This document shows positions 6,065 to 42,825 of a stretch of DNA of 49,712 bases, piece after piece; within the stretch, counting starts at the first letter, position 1; every line of letters begins with the position of its first letter. The position numbers and the translations under genes were made by a program. The notes under the pieces were generated by a model. The model was not told the origin of the DNA and ran no database searches. It saw nothing but the letters and a program-made list of their open reading frames with translations. The DNA is taken from NCBI RefSeq assembly GCF_030548295.1, contig NZ_JAUOSB010000019.1, positions 1 through 49,712 of the forward strand, in the 5' to 3' direction. This DNA is from Wenyingzhuangia sp. 2_MG-2023. Its GTDB lineage: Bacteria; Bacteroidota; Bacteroidia; Flavobacteriales; Flavobacteriaceae.

Positions 6065-6138
6065 TCCTCCTTAGCTCAGTTGGTTAGAGCATCTGACTGT
6101 TAATCAGAGGGTCCTAGGTTCGAGTCCTAGAGGGGGAG
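6065..6138 (+). tRNA. tRNA-Asn (anticodon GTT), copy 1
   Basis: A 74-base cloverleaf. The acceptor stem TCCTCCT pairs with AGGGGGA (one G-U pair), followed by discriminator G. The D-arm contains AGCTCAGTTGGTTAGAGC, the anticodon stem TCTGA/TCAGA encloses loop CTGTTAA with anticodon GTT, and the T-arm has the standard GGTTCGAGTCC. The 3' CCA is not encoded, as is common in Bacteroidetes. It is identical over its whole length to the copy at 11504-11577. A hairpin terminator follows within six bases. Confidence 0.97.
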
Positions 6139-6143
6139 CAAAT

Positions 6144-11503: not shown

Positions 11504-11577
11504 TCCTCCTTAGCTCAGTTGGTTAGAGCATCTGACTGTTAATCAGAGGGTCCTAGGTTCGAGTCCTAGAGGGGGAG
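11504..11577 (+). tRNA. tRNA-Asn (anticodon GTT), copy 2
   Basis: Same 74-base sequence as the copy at 6065-6138: acceptor TCCTCCT/AGGGGGA, anticodon GTT in loop CTGTTAA, no encoded CCA. Upstream similarity between the copies continues back to the promoter box (35 of 44 bases), while the downstream terminators are unrelated. Confidence 0.97.
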
Positions 11578-11578
11578 C

Positions 11579-41143: not shown

Positions 41144-42229
41144 ATGGAACCATTTATCGTATCTGCACGTAAGTACAGACCTTTAACGTTTAAGGATGTT
41201 GTTGGACAACAGTCCATAACCAATACTTTAGAAAACGCTATTCAAAACGATCATTTAGCTCAAGCCTTATTATTTACAGGGCCAAGAGGTGTTGGTAAAA
41301 CTACTTGTGCTAGAATTTTAGCAAAAAAAATAAACGAACAAGCTACAGGAACAGAAGACGATGATTTTGCATTTAACATTTTTGAGTTGGATGCTGCATC
41401 AAACAATTCTGTAGATGATATTAGAAATTTAATAGATCAAGTTCGTATTCCACCACAGGTTGGTAAGTACAAAGTATATATTATTGATGAGGTGCACATG
41501 TTGTCATCAGCAGCTTTTAATGCGTTTTTAAAAACATTAGAGGAGCCACCTGCACATGCTATTTTTATTTTAGCAACCACAGAAAAGCATAAAATCATTC
41601 CTACCATTCTTTCTCGATGTCAGATTTTTGATTTTAAAAGAATTACAGTTGTAGCGGCTAAGGATCATTTAAAAAGTATTGCGGAACAAGAAGGTATAAA
41701 TGCAGAAGACGATGCTTTACATATAATTGCGCAAAAAGCAGATGGAGCTATGCGTGATGCACTTTCAATTTATGATAGAGTTGTTAGTTTTTCTGGAAAA
41801 GATTTGACACGTTTAGCGGTTACTGAAAACTTAAATGTTCTGGATTATGACGTCTATTTTGAAATCACTTCATTATTGATTGAAAATAAAATTCCAGAAG
41901 TATTACTTTCTTTTAACAATGTTTTGTCAAAAGGTTTTGACGGACAACATTTTATCAATGGATTGGCATCTCATTTTAGAGATTTGTTGGTAGCTAAAGA
42001 CGCGGCTACAGTACAATTGCTAGAAATTGGTGATAATGCCAAAAAACAATATCTAGAACAATCTGCTAAGTCAGACATGACTTTCTTGATAACAGCTATA
42101 GAAAAAGCAAATACATGTGATTTAAATTACAGAGCAAGTAAAAACCAAAGATTGCTGGTAGAACTTTGTTTGATGCAAATGGCTTCGATCACTTTTAGTG
42201 ATGTAAAAAAAAAAGCAGTAACTTCATAA
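41144..42229 (+). CDS. dnaX: DNA polymerase III gamma-like subunit (short dnaX product)
   Basis: Clamp-loader ATPase. The unshifted product has 361 residues: Walker A GPRGVGKTT (46-54), Walker B IIDEVH (113-118), sensor LSRCQIF, and the lid and collar domains. The four-cysteine zinc module usually found between Walker A and B is replaced by NEQATGTEDDDFAF, which I believe is normal for Bacteroidetes. The reading frame ends with VKKKAVTS just after ten consecutive A (42205-42214). The rest of the protein continues in the -1 frame to 42825, so a longer product of 560 residues is expected if the ribosome or RNA polymerase slips there. The short form keeps all three ATPase-core domains, as gamma does in E. 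coli. Confidence 0.92.
   Translation: MEPFIVSARKYRPLTFKDVVGQQSITNTLENAIQNDHLAQALLFTGPRGVGKTTCARILAKKINEQATGTEDDDFAFNIFELDAASNNSVDDIRNLIDQVRIPPQVGKYKVYIIDEVHMLSSAAFNAFLKTLEEPPAHAIFILATTEKHKIIPTILSRCQIFDFKRITVVAAKDHLKSIAEQEGINAEDDALHIIAQKADGAMRDALSIYDRVVSFSGKDLTRLAVTENLNVLDYDVYFEITSLLIENKIPEVLLSFNNVLSKGFDGQHFINGLASHFRDLLVAKDAATVQLLEIGDNAKKQYLEQSAKSDMTFLITAIEKANTCDLNYRASKNQRLLVELCLMQMASITFSDVKKKAVTS
42205..42214 (+). other. A10 slippage/frameshift site within dnaX
   Basis: Ten consecutive A read as GTA AAA AAA AAA GCA in the starting frame. One extra A in the mRNA, two fewer, or a -1 ribosomal slip, leads to SSNFIIPASFFRANIPVSKV and the long form. A one-base loss leads to an immediate stop (KKKQ, then TAA). 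No strong stem-loop follows, which favours transcriptional slippage. A homopolymer sequencing error remains possible. Confidence 0.7.
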
Positions 42230-42825
42230 TACCCGCTAGTTTTTTTAGAGCAAACATTCCTGTTTCTAAAGTAGATAAATTGCCGACAAAGCCTGTTGTT
42301 ATCGAGAAAAAAACTGTTGCTACAAACATCAAGCCTACTCAAACGGTTGAAGAAAATCAAAAGGCAAGAAGAAGAAGAGCTTCAGCGCTGTCTTTAAAGA
42401 AAATTCACAACAAGCTATCAGATATTGATCAGATAGAAAACGACGATTATACAGATAAGCCCAAAGACACGTTTTCTGAAATACAATTAGTAGAAACATG
42501 GACTGCTTTTGGAAAAAAGTTAGAAGTTGATGGGGAGTTGAATATGGCTTCTATTGTAAATGCAAACAAACCAGTTTTGAAAAATGGTGAAATTGTATTT
42601 GCGTTACCCAACAAATTAATGGAAGATCAGATGGGAGCTGTAAAACCCAAATTGATGAATTATTTAAGAAGTCAATTAAACAACTATGGCATTCAGTTGA
42701 AAACAATTGTAGTGGCAACTGAAAGGAAAAAATATGTATATACTCCACAAGAAAAATTTCAAAAACTAGCAGAGGAAAATCCAGATTTATTGTTTTTAAA
42801 AAATAAGTTTGGCTTAGATATTTAA
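42214..42825 (+). CDS. dnaX: C-terminal, tau-like part of DnaX (reached by a -1 shift)
   Basis: This frame continues dnaX without any ATG at its beginning: after the A-run it reads SSNFIIPASFFRANIPV, then a lysine-rich, flexible linker (RRRRASALSLKKIHNKLSD in outline) and a final folded domain (VETWTAFGKKLEVDGELNMA, LPNKLMEDQMGAVKPKLMNY, YTPQEKFQKLAEENPDLLFL). Such a tail fits the tau-specific region that binds polymerase or helicase. The linker and end are open with normal codon use, so the region is under selection rather than decayed. The ATG-type start in the middle (42280) is unlikely to be used alone. Confidence 0.75.
   Translation, partial: SSNFIIPASFFRANIPVSKVDKLPTKPVVIEKKTVATNIKPTQTVEENQKARRRRASALSLKKIHNKLSDIDQIENDDYTDKPKDTFSEIQLVETWTAFGKKLEVDGELNMASIVNANKPVLKNGEIVFALPNKLMEDQMGAVKPKLMNYLRSQLNNYGIQLKTIVVATERKKYVYTPQEKFQKLAEENPDLLFLKNKFGLDI

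Follow-up and report, generated by a model that had tools for sequence, protein, structure and literature searches.

A candidate slippage run of ten adenines at the gamma/tau junction of a split dnaX gene in Wenyingzhuangia and its relatives

The stretch of DNA analysed here (the window; 49,712 nucleotides (nt), contig NZ_JAUOSB010000019.1 of Wenyingzhuangia sp. 2_MG-2023, Flavobacteriaceae) carries a dnaX gene, the gene of the clamp-loader subunits gamma and tau, which is divided between two reading frames at a run of ten adenines (A10). Its features are collected in Table 1. The templated frame reads GAT GTA AAA AAA AAA GCA GTA ACT TCA TAA at the run, and the product of the first open reading frame (ORF 1) ends in SDV-KKK-AVTS-stop, with four sense codons separating A10 from TAA. 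The -1 frame is open from AGC at 42214 (SSNFIIPASFFRANIPVS..., read as SSNFIIPASFF...) up to a stop at 42823-42825, and its earliest start-type codon is TTG at 42280, downstream of the conserved block with which it begins. Counted from inside the run, the two frames not used for tau close after 6 and 3 codons.

Table 1. Features of the dnaX locus (positions in the window)
Feature	Position	Strand	Description	Basis
dnaX ORF 1	41144..42229	+	clamp-loader core; short gamma-like product, 361 residues as templated	ORF list, profile matches
A10 slippage run (candidate)	42205..42214	+	starts in codon 354, about 5 residues downstream of where the domain III match ends	
TAA stop of the templated frame (gamma end)	42227..42229	+	shares letters with ATA-ATA, two Ile codons in the tau frame	
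tau-specific part, -1 frame	42214..42825	+	203 residues and stop; access requires +1 nt or a shift of -1	

In profile searches, the product of ORF 1 matches TIGR02397 (dnaX_nterm) over residues 6-346 and, among Pfam families, PF13177 at 22-167 and PF12169 (domain III) at 226-349, the latter under the Pfam cut-off. Each piece taken alone finds the same NCBIfam gamma/tau model, PRK14971 (614 residues): piece 1 covers profile positions 1-369 (E 9.7e-190) and piece 2 the C-terminal positions 430-613 (E 1.7e-24), both with bit scores under the whole-protein cut-off of the model, as expected for pieces. Because piece 1 is thus the core and piece 2 the C-terminal part, the short DnaX product ends just past the core, as gamma does. 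The original prediction, made from the letters of the window, had described a dnaX gene split at A10, a short product ending after the clamp-loader core and a C-terminal part continuing in the -1 frame to 42825, all of which agrees with these matches. It had also placed the stop at 42229 right after the ten adenines, which is correct for the position and not for the distance, given the four intervening codons; the -1 part, which it had described as having no start codon of its own, has TTG 42280 past the conserved block. By alignment, the cysteine-cluster stretch of E. coli DnaX (the zinc module) is shortened and cysteine-free in the window protein (41144-42229).

The arrangement is preserved throughout the genus. 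A10 lies in the same phase in all seven genomes analysed for the genus, our own included, and a named close relative, Wenyingzhuangia aestuarii (89% identity), shows the same. The block SSNFIIPAxFFR directly past the run is equally kept in 7/7 genomes, ahead of the first start-type codon of its frame. Over 21 pairs within the genus, the median ratio of nonsynonymous to synonymous substitution rates (dN/dS) is 0.162 for the tau part and 0.064 for the core; these values are rough, dS being often near or above 1, and the gamma frame, too, passes through the first codons after the run. Judged from these sequence comparisons, the downstream (tau) frame is clearly under purifying selection.

Loci of dnaX were then compared across the genus, family, order, class and phylum; judging by its named relatives, the class is Bacteroidia. 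Among 282 loci, 274 were scored, eight giving no tblastn match, and 7 of the 274 were removed as repeats by their 150-nt context; the resulting 267 distinct contexts are enriched for split genes, since 13 family members were included because of a short frame. A run of at least nine adenines (A>=9) lies at the junction in 238 of the 267. The search for runs covered 170 nt around the anchor; some of the loci entered as short or run-less carry a run farther away (a long one in L226, L239 and L278, A9 in L232). Three other counts are less biased towards split genes. In the class sample (other orders), A>=9 is present at 65 of the 79 scored loci, 19 of the 65 being split and 2 unclear, and in the order sample (other families) at 40 of 46, with 16 split and 1 unclear. 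The best matches from the same phylum outside the class have no run (0/8, L202-L209); among four loci outside the class picked for a short frame, three were scored (all but L304) and all three carry it. In the third of the less biased counts, the open frame is at most 389 residues long in 23 of the best 150 of 292 matching genomes. With respect to the run, tau is in frame at 158 of the 238 run-bearing loci, needs one extra nucleotide (+1 nt) at 61 and one fewer (-1 nt) at 15, and is of unclear phase at 4. The run is exactly ten adenines long at 130/158, 45/61 and 6/15 of the in-frame, +1 nt and -1 nt loci, respectively, and three loci at 63-71% GC spell it purely with AAA codons. The original prediction had named uninterrupted, run-less relatives as evidence that would speak against it: most relatives are indeed uninterrupted but keep the run, although run-less genes are found farther off in the class and also beyond it. 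An intact dnaX of this class may look frameshifted to gene callers. Two further observations concern run length: the longest run, A14 (L290), has tau at -1 nt and is either genuine or an artefact of assembly, and in two genomes of about 0.6 Mb (L234, L235) the dnaX runs are A10 and A11, the A11 one having tau off by -1 nt.

The surroundings of the run bear signs of selection on the site itself and not on the lysines alone. Both unused frames are closed within 15 codons at 228 of 234 run-bearing loci vs 6 of 20 run-less ones (Fisher test, 3.5e-14), counts that omit six loci of unclear phase and seven with A7-A8, and whose 20 run-less loci include the eight outside the class (L202-L209). After thinning by tau similarity, the figures are 162/166 with the run and 6/18 without it. 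At in-frame loci with the run, both frames are closed in 151/156 vs 59.4 expected. The run itself was compared with synonymous resampling based on each locus's own codon use, for which 180 of the 183 in-frame loci, run-bearing or not, were usable: A>=9 is found in 155/180 vs 74.2 expected and, when only the order and class samples are taken, in 67/84 vs 27.4. Furthermore, among the 116 loci with an Ile-Ile/Val block past the run, the first Ile codon of the block is ATA in 114 (63/65 after thinning), compared with 30% in the same ORFs; ATA followed by A creates TAA in a shifted frame. As the loci are related, the P values overstate independence.

Long adenine runs are otherwise scarce in the own genome. 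Nine-A matches number 3 in the window, two of them within the dnaX run, vs 21.7 expected. In a census of 295 ORFs of at least 150 residues (about 402 kb, drawn from 400 kb of contig C1 and from the window), sense runs of A>=9 occur 8 times vs about 57 expected from synonymous resampling; sense runs of 5-8 are close to expectation, and the sole A10 is that of dnaX. Genes of many bacteria are reported to avoid runs of about nine A or T, which has been interpreted as the mark of selection against slippage during transcription, during replication or during both (PMC1088944). Positions 1-400000 of contig C1 also hold seven other ORFs with a sense A9 and six with T9, some of them deep in the gene; these are possibly slippage-prone or wrongly started genes.

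The phase in which the DNA encodes the two products changes repeatedly along the tree of DnaX cores. This tree was built with FastTree only, from 210 rows; the phase labels of 27 loci (L306-L332) were assigned by hand from open-frame lengths, one being left blank, and those of L348-L350 from reading the junction. The templated product is gamma in 53 of the 194 labelled taxa. At least 27 changes of template phase are required, vs a mean of 46.4 after shuffling (minimum 39 of 200 shuffles), so the phase is non-random on the tree and not fully neutral. Both phases coexist within Lacinutrix (L. mariniflava vs L. algicola), Psychroserpens (P. damuponensis vs two uncultured Psychroserpens) and Galbibacter (G. 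marinus vs G. pacificus). In addition, two species of one genus (g34; L121, L126) share an A11 that needs -1 nt, and since such a run is common to two species, this direction is not merely an assembly slip.

One family of the same order (f6) shows a different signal at this position. Matches were obtained in 59 of 60 searched genomes, and the junction was read in 45, including all 14 with clearly short frames. A run of ten or eleven adenines is present in 42 of the 45 and absent in three genomes of two genera (L348, L349, L350). The latter read CCA AAA AAG and then directly a stop codon, TAG or TAA; a hairpin lies 5-6 nt past the heptamer, and their -1 frames are open through the tau part. The hairpins (L223/L348, L227/L349 and L335/L350) have folding energies of -26.5, -20.8 and -19.9 kcal/mol and z scores of -4.38, -1.36 and -1.78, so that only the first stands out from shuffles by itself. 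They share an 11-pair consensus stem in which two pairs are changed on both sides, one of those being broken in a third sequence. By its sequence, this signal is of the E. coli type in reversed layout, as for the Chlorobium phaeobacteroides candidate. It suggests that the making of two products can survive a swap of mechanism, selection acting on the pair of products rather than on the way in which they arise. A separate run-less dnaX (L249) has an in-phase A_AAA_AAG, GGGAGGA just upstream and an early stop of the -1 frame, with no stem-loop (z 0.09).

Taking these features together, the A10 of the window is probably a site of programmed RNA-polymerase slippage of the Thermus type, from which both gamma and tau would be made. 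The frame-0 codons GTA AAA AAA AAA GCA contain no in-phase A_AAA_AAG, folding detects no stem-loop near the run (z 0.24 and 0.03), and no AGGAG-like Shine-Dalgarno stimulator is visible by eye in cttcgatcacttttagtgatgt, directly 5' of it. With neither stem nor in-phase heptamer, an E. coli-type signal was rejected for the window. The original prediction had preferred polymerase slippage on the ground that no stable stem follows the run; this absence is corroborated by the folding, and the preference gains from the missing heptamer, from the two directions seen in relatives and from the varied base 3' of the run, which is T, G or C across loci (one N). According to a rule given in PMC3711429, the occurrence of both shift directions in the same gene indicates transcriptional realignment; as both directions occur among the relatives, polymerase slippage is favoured. 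Bacteroidia ribosomes are described as not recognising Shine-Dalgarno sequences (PMC9976891), which would remove one E. coli stimulator, and Flavobacterium johnsoniae reportedly shifts poorly at prfB (PMC12421855); the two properties together would weaken an E. coli-type device.

Several points weigh against this attribution, besides the relatedness of the loci, the rough dN/dS values with their shared first codons and the non-random template phase described above. Ribosomes are reported to slide on A runs too (PMC4363877), and for that reason position and flanks alone cannot prove the polymerase. One extra nucleotide, the direction of a -1 ribosomal shift, is what most split genes require. 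Across 261 distinct loci, the mean z of downstream folding is -0.37 for tau-in-frame, -0.40 for +1 nt and -0.69 for -1 nt loci (15 loci), with z<-2 in 9%, 13% and 20%, respectively. The in-frame loci thus fold slightly more strongly than a control window (-0.10, Wilcoxon p 0.015), a signal that is tempered by the like folding of run-less in-frame loci (mean z -0.48, 12% with z<-2). The signal is weak, and no strong common stem was found near the run-bearing junctions among these 261 loci. Finally, two tRNA-Lys species have been suggested to favour slippage (PMC5009743), an idea not supported here, since only tRNA-Lys(UUU) appears among the own-genome tRNAs typed by ARAGORN (44 matches, two of them, L453 and L458, without a call and one of unassigned type). 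A search pattern for CUU tRNA-Lys in 13 genomes returned matches that by eye are not tRNA genes, and its companion pattern failed to pick up the UUU genes of the own genome, which ARAGORN did detect.

The alternative closest to these points is that the ribosome makes the frame change, by -1 frameshifting or sliding on the A10 of a faithful mRNA, to give tau. The 61 distinct split loci that need this direction, the sliding on A stretches reported in PMC4363877 and the three f6 genomes with an E. coli-type -1 signal at this very junction, which indicate that the lineage can use ribosomal shifting, are all consistent with it. However, the window codons AAA AAA AAA GCA lack an in-phase A_AAA_AAG, which is described as far more shift-prone than A_AAA_AAA in E. 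coli (PMC5009743); no stem-loop is present in the window, the opposite direction is required at 15 distinct loci, and a ribosomal signal would not require nine or more adenines, the three stem-loop genomes keeping six. We therefore regard a ribosomal origin of tau in the window as unlikely. Much less probable still is a tolerated accident, in which mutations of the run are made good for tau by slippage and the short product is functionless. Homopolymer frameshifts that slippage may rescue are reported in endosymbionts (PMC3017870), and the frequent flips of template phase would fit; against this, the run, the pair of closing stops and ATA are all retained at in-frame loci beyond synonymous expectation, the own genome avoids A>=9 elsewhere, the pair of near stops is missing in 14/20 run-less loci, and one clade has a different two-product signal replacing the run.

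Two further explanations concern the split itself. The gene might consist of two cistrons, yielding gamma and a separately started C-terminal polypeptide of tau from TTG 42280 or later, a codon that does open a frame of 181 residues. The conservation of SSNFIIPAxFFR in the -1 frame between the run and this TTG in 7/7 genus genomes, together with the 158 distinct run-bearing relatives that encode the fusion in one frame, makes this very improbable. An error of sequencing or assembly in the A run would be conceivable in principle, as homopolymers are error-prone and the own assembly comprises 253 contigs, but it was rejected on the identity of run and phase in 7/7 genus genomes and on the same finding in the named member Wenyingzhuangia aestuarii, and its probability is practically negligible.

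Programmed slippage of RNA polymerase would then operate as follows. The enzyme would realign on A10 and produce a mixed pool of mRNAs. Those with the templated A10 (or 10+3n) would end after AVTS and give the 361-residue gamma-like clamp-loader subunit, whereas those with one extra A (or two fewer) would continue through SSNFIIPASFF... to yield a tau-like subunit, about 560 residues long and spanning the frame junction KKKSSNFIIPASFF. Estimated roughly from their lengths, the two subunits would measure about 40 and 62 kDa. Messages in the third frame would stop almost at once and so yield gamma too. Because slippage would re-deal all three frames, the frame encoded in the DNA would matter little and its phase could drift in evolution, with the run length and the stops of the two unused frames being kept. 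For the class as a whole, we incline, with only a little more confidence than doubt, to a phase-free slippage cassette consisting of an A run (mode ten) and near stops in both unused frames. In such a cassette, the level of slippage would set the gamma:tau ratio and the DNA may encode either product; at least 27 phase changes would have occurred, some in each direction, while the length of the run stayed largely constant, and one clade would have swapped to a ribosomal signal. For E. coli, the position of gamma within the enzyme was for a long time a matter of dispute (PMC5009743). Class-wide selection on a two-product site, with a switch of mechanism in one clade, would argue, by comparison, that bacteria of this class need both products. 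The relatives also provide naturally occurring phase variants in which slippage could be measured against a background of ribosomes that ignore Shine-Dalgarno sequences.

Two observations on tRNA genes stand apart from dnaX. At C110:205455-205528 of the own genome, near tRNA-Met and tRNA-Asn, ARAGORN reports a tRNA with a four-base anticodon (gtaa), which may be unusual or degenerate. In the window, two tRNA-Asn(gtt) genes (6065-6139 and 11504-11578, both on the + strand) lie 5.4 kb apart, and the intervening segment may have arisen by duplication or by insertion at a tRNA gene.

The two-ORF arrangement with A10 seen in the window has been known since 2013, when 17 dnaX genes from 12 genera, nine of them with ten A, were reported and slippage was predicted (Antonov et al. 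2013, PMC3711429). As in those genes, gamma of the window ends in the templated frame after ten A and tau lies in the -1 frame; all 17 are -1 cases, whereas the present lineage has both directions and in-frame forms. The main text of that paper does not name Flavobacteri, Gramella, Croceibacter, Zunongwangia or Chryseobacterium, and its ten-A genera are listed in the supplement. The literature matches listed include no other report of dnaX slippage for the class, and none on its class-wide extent, on phase flips in both directions or on a clade's swap to a ribosomal stem-loop signal; a 2026 survey of DNA polymerases (PMC12926913) does not mention frameshifting.

Among characterised systems, dnaX of Thermus thermophilus undergoes transcriptional slippage at nine or more adenines at the gamma/tau junction, with near stops in both other frames (PMC1088944, PMC5009743). 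The window resembles it in having A>=9 at the junction, past the domain III match, and near stops in both non-tau frames. Unlike in Thermus, where tau is templated, the window templates gamma and tau needs one extra nucleotide; the Thermus layout, with tau in a single ORF, is nevertheless that of most relatives (158/238 run-bearing distinct loci). In E. coli, dnaX uses a -1 ribosomal frameshift at A_AAA_AAG with an upstream Shine-Dalgarno-like sequence and a stem-loop (PMC3711429). The gene, the junction and the expected pair of products are the same in the window, which differs in lacking the in-phase heptamer and the stem-loop and in its reversed template phase. Reversed candidates for ribosomal frameshifting in dnaX have been described and include Chlorobium phaeobacteroides, which has potential stimulators like those of E. 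coli (PMC5009743). The window shares with that candidate a gamma stop in the templated frame and a tau reached by a change of frame, and differs from it in having no stimulators; the type is instead resembled by the three f6 genomes (L348, L349, L350).
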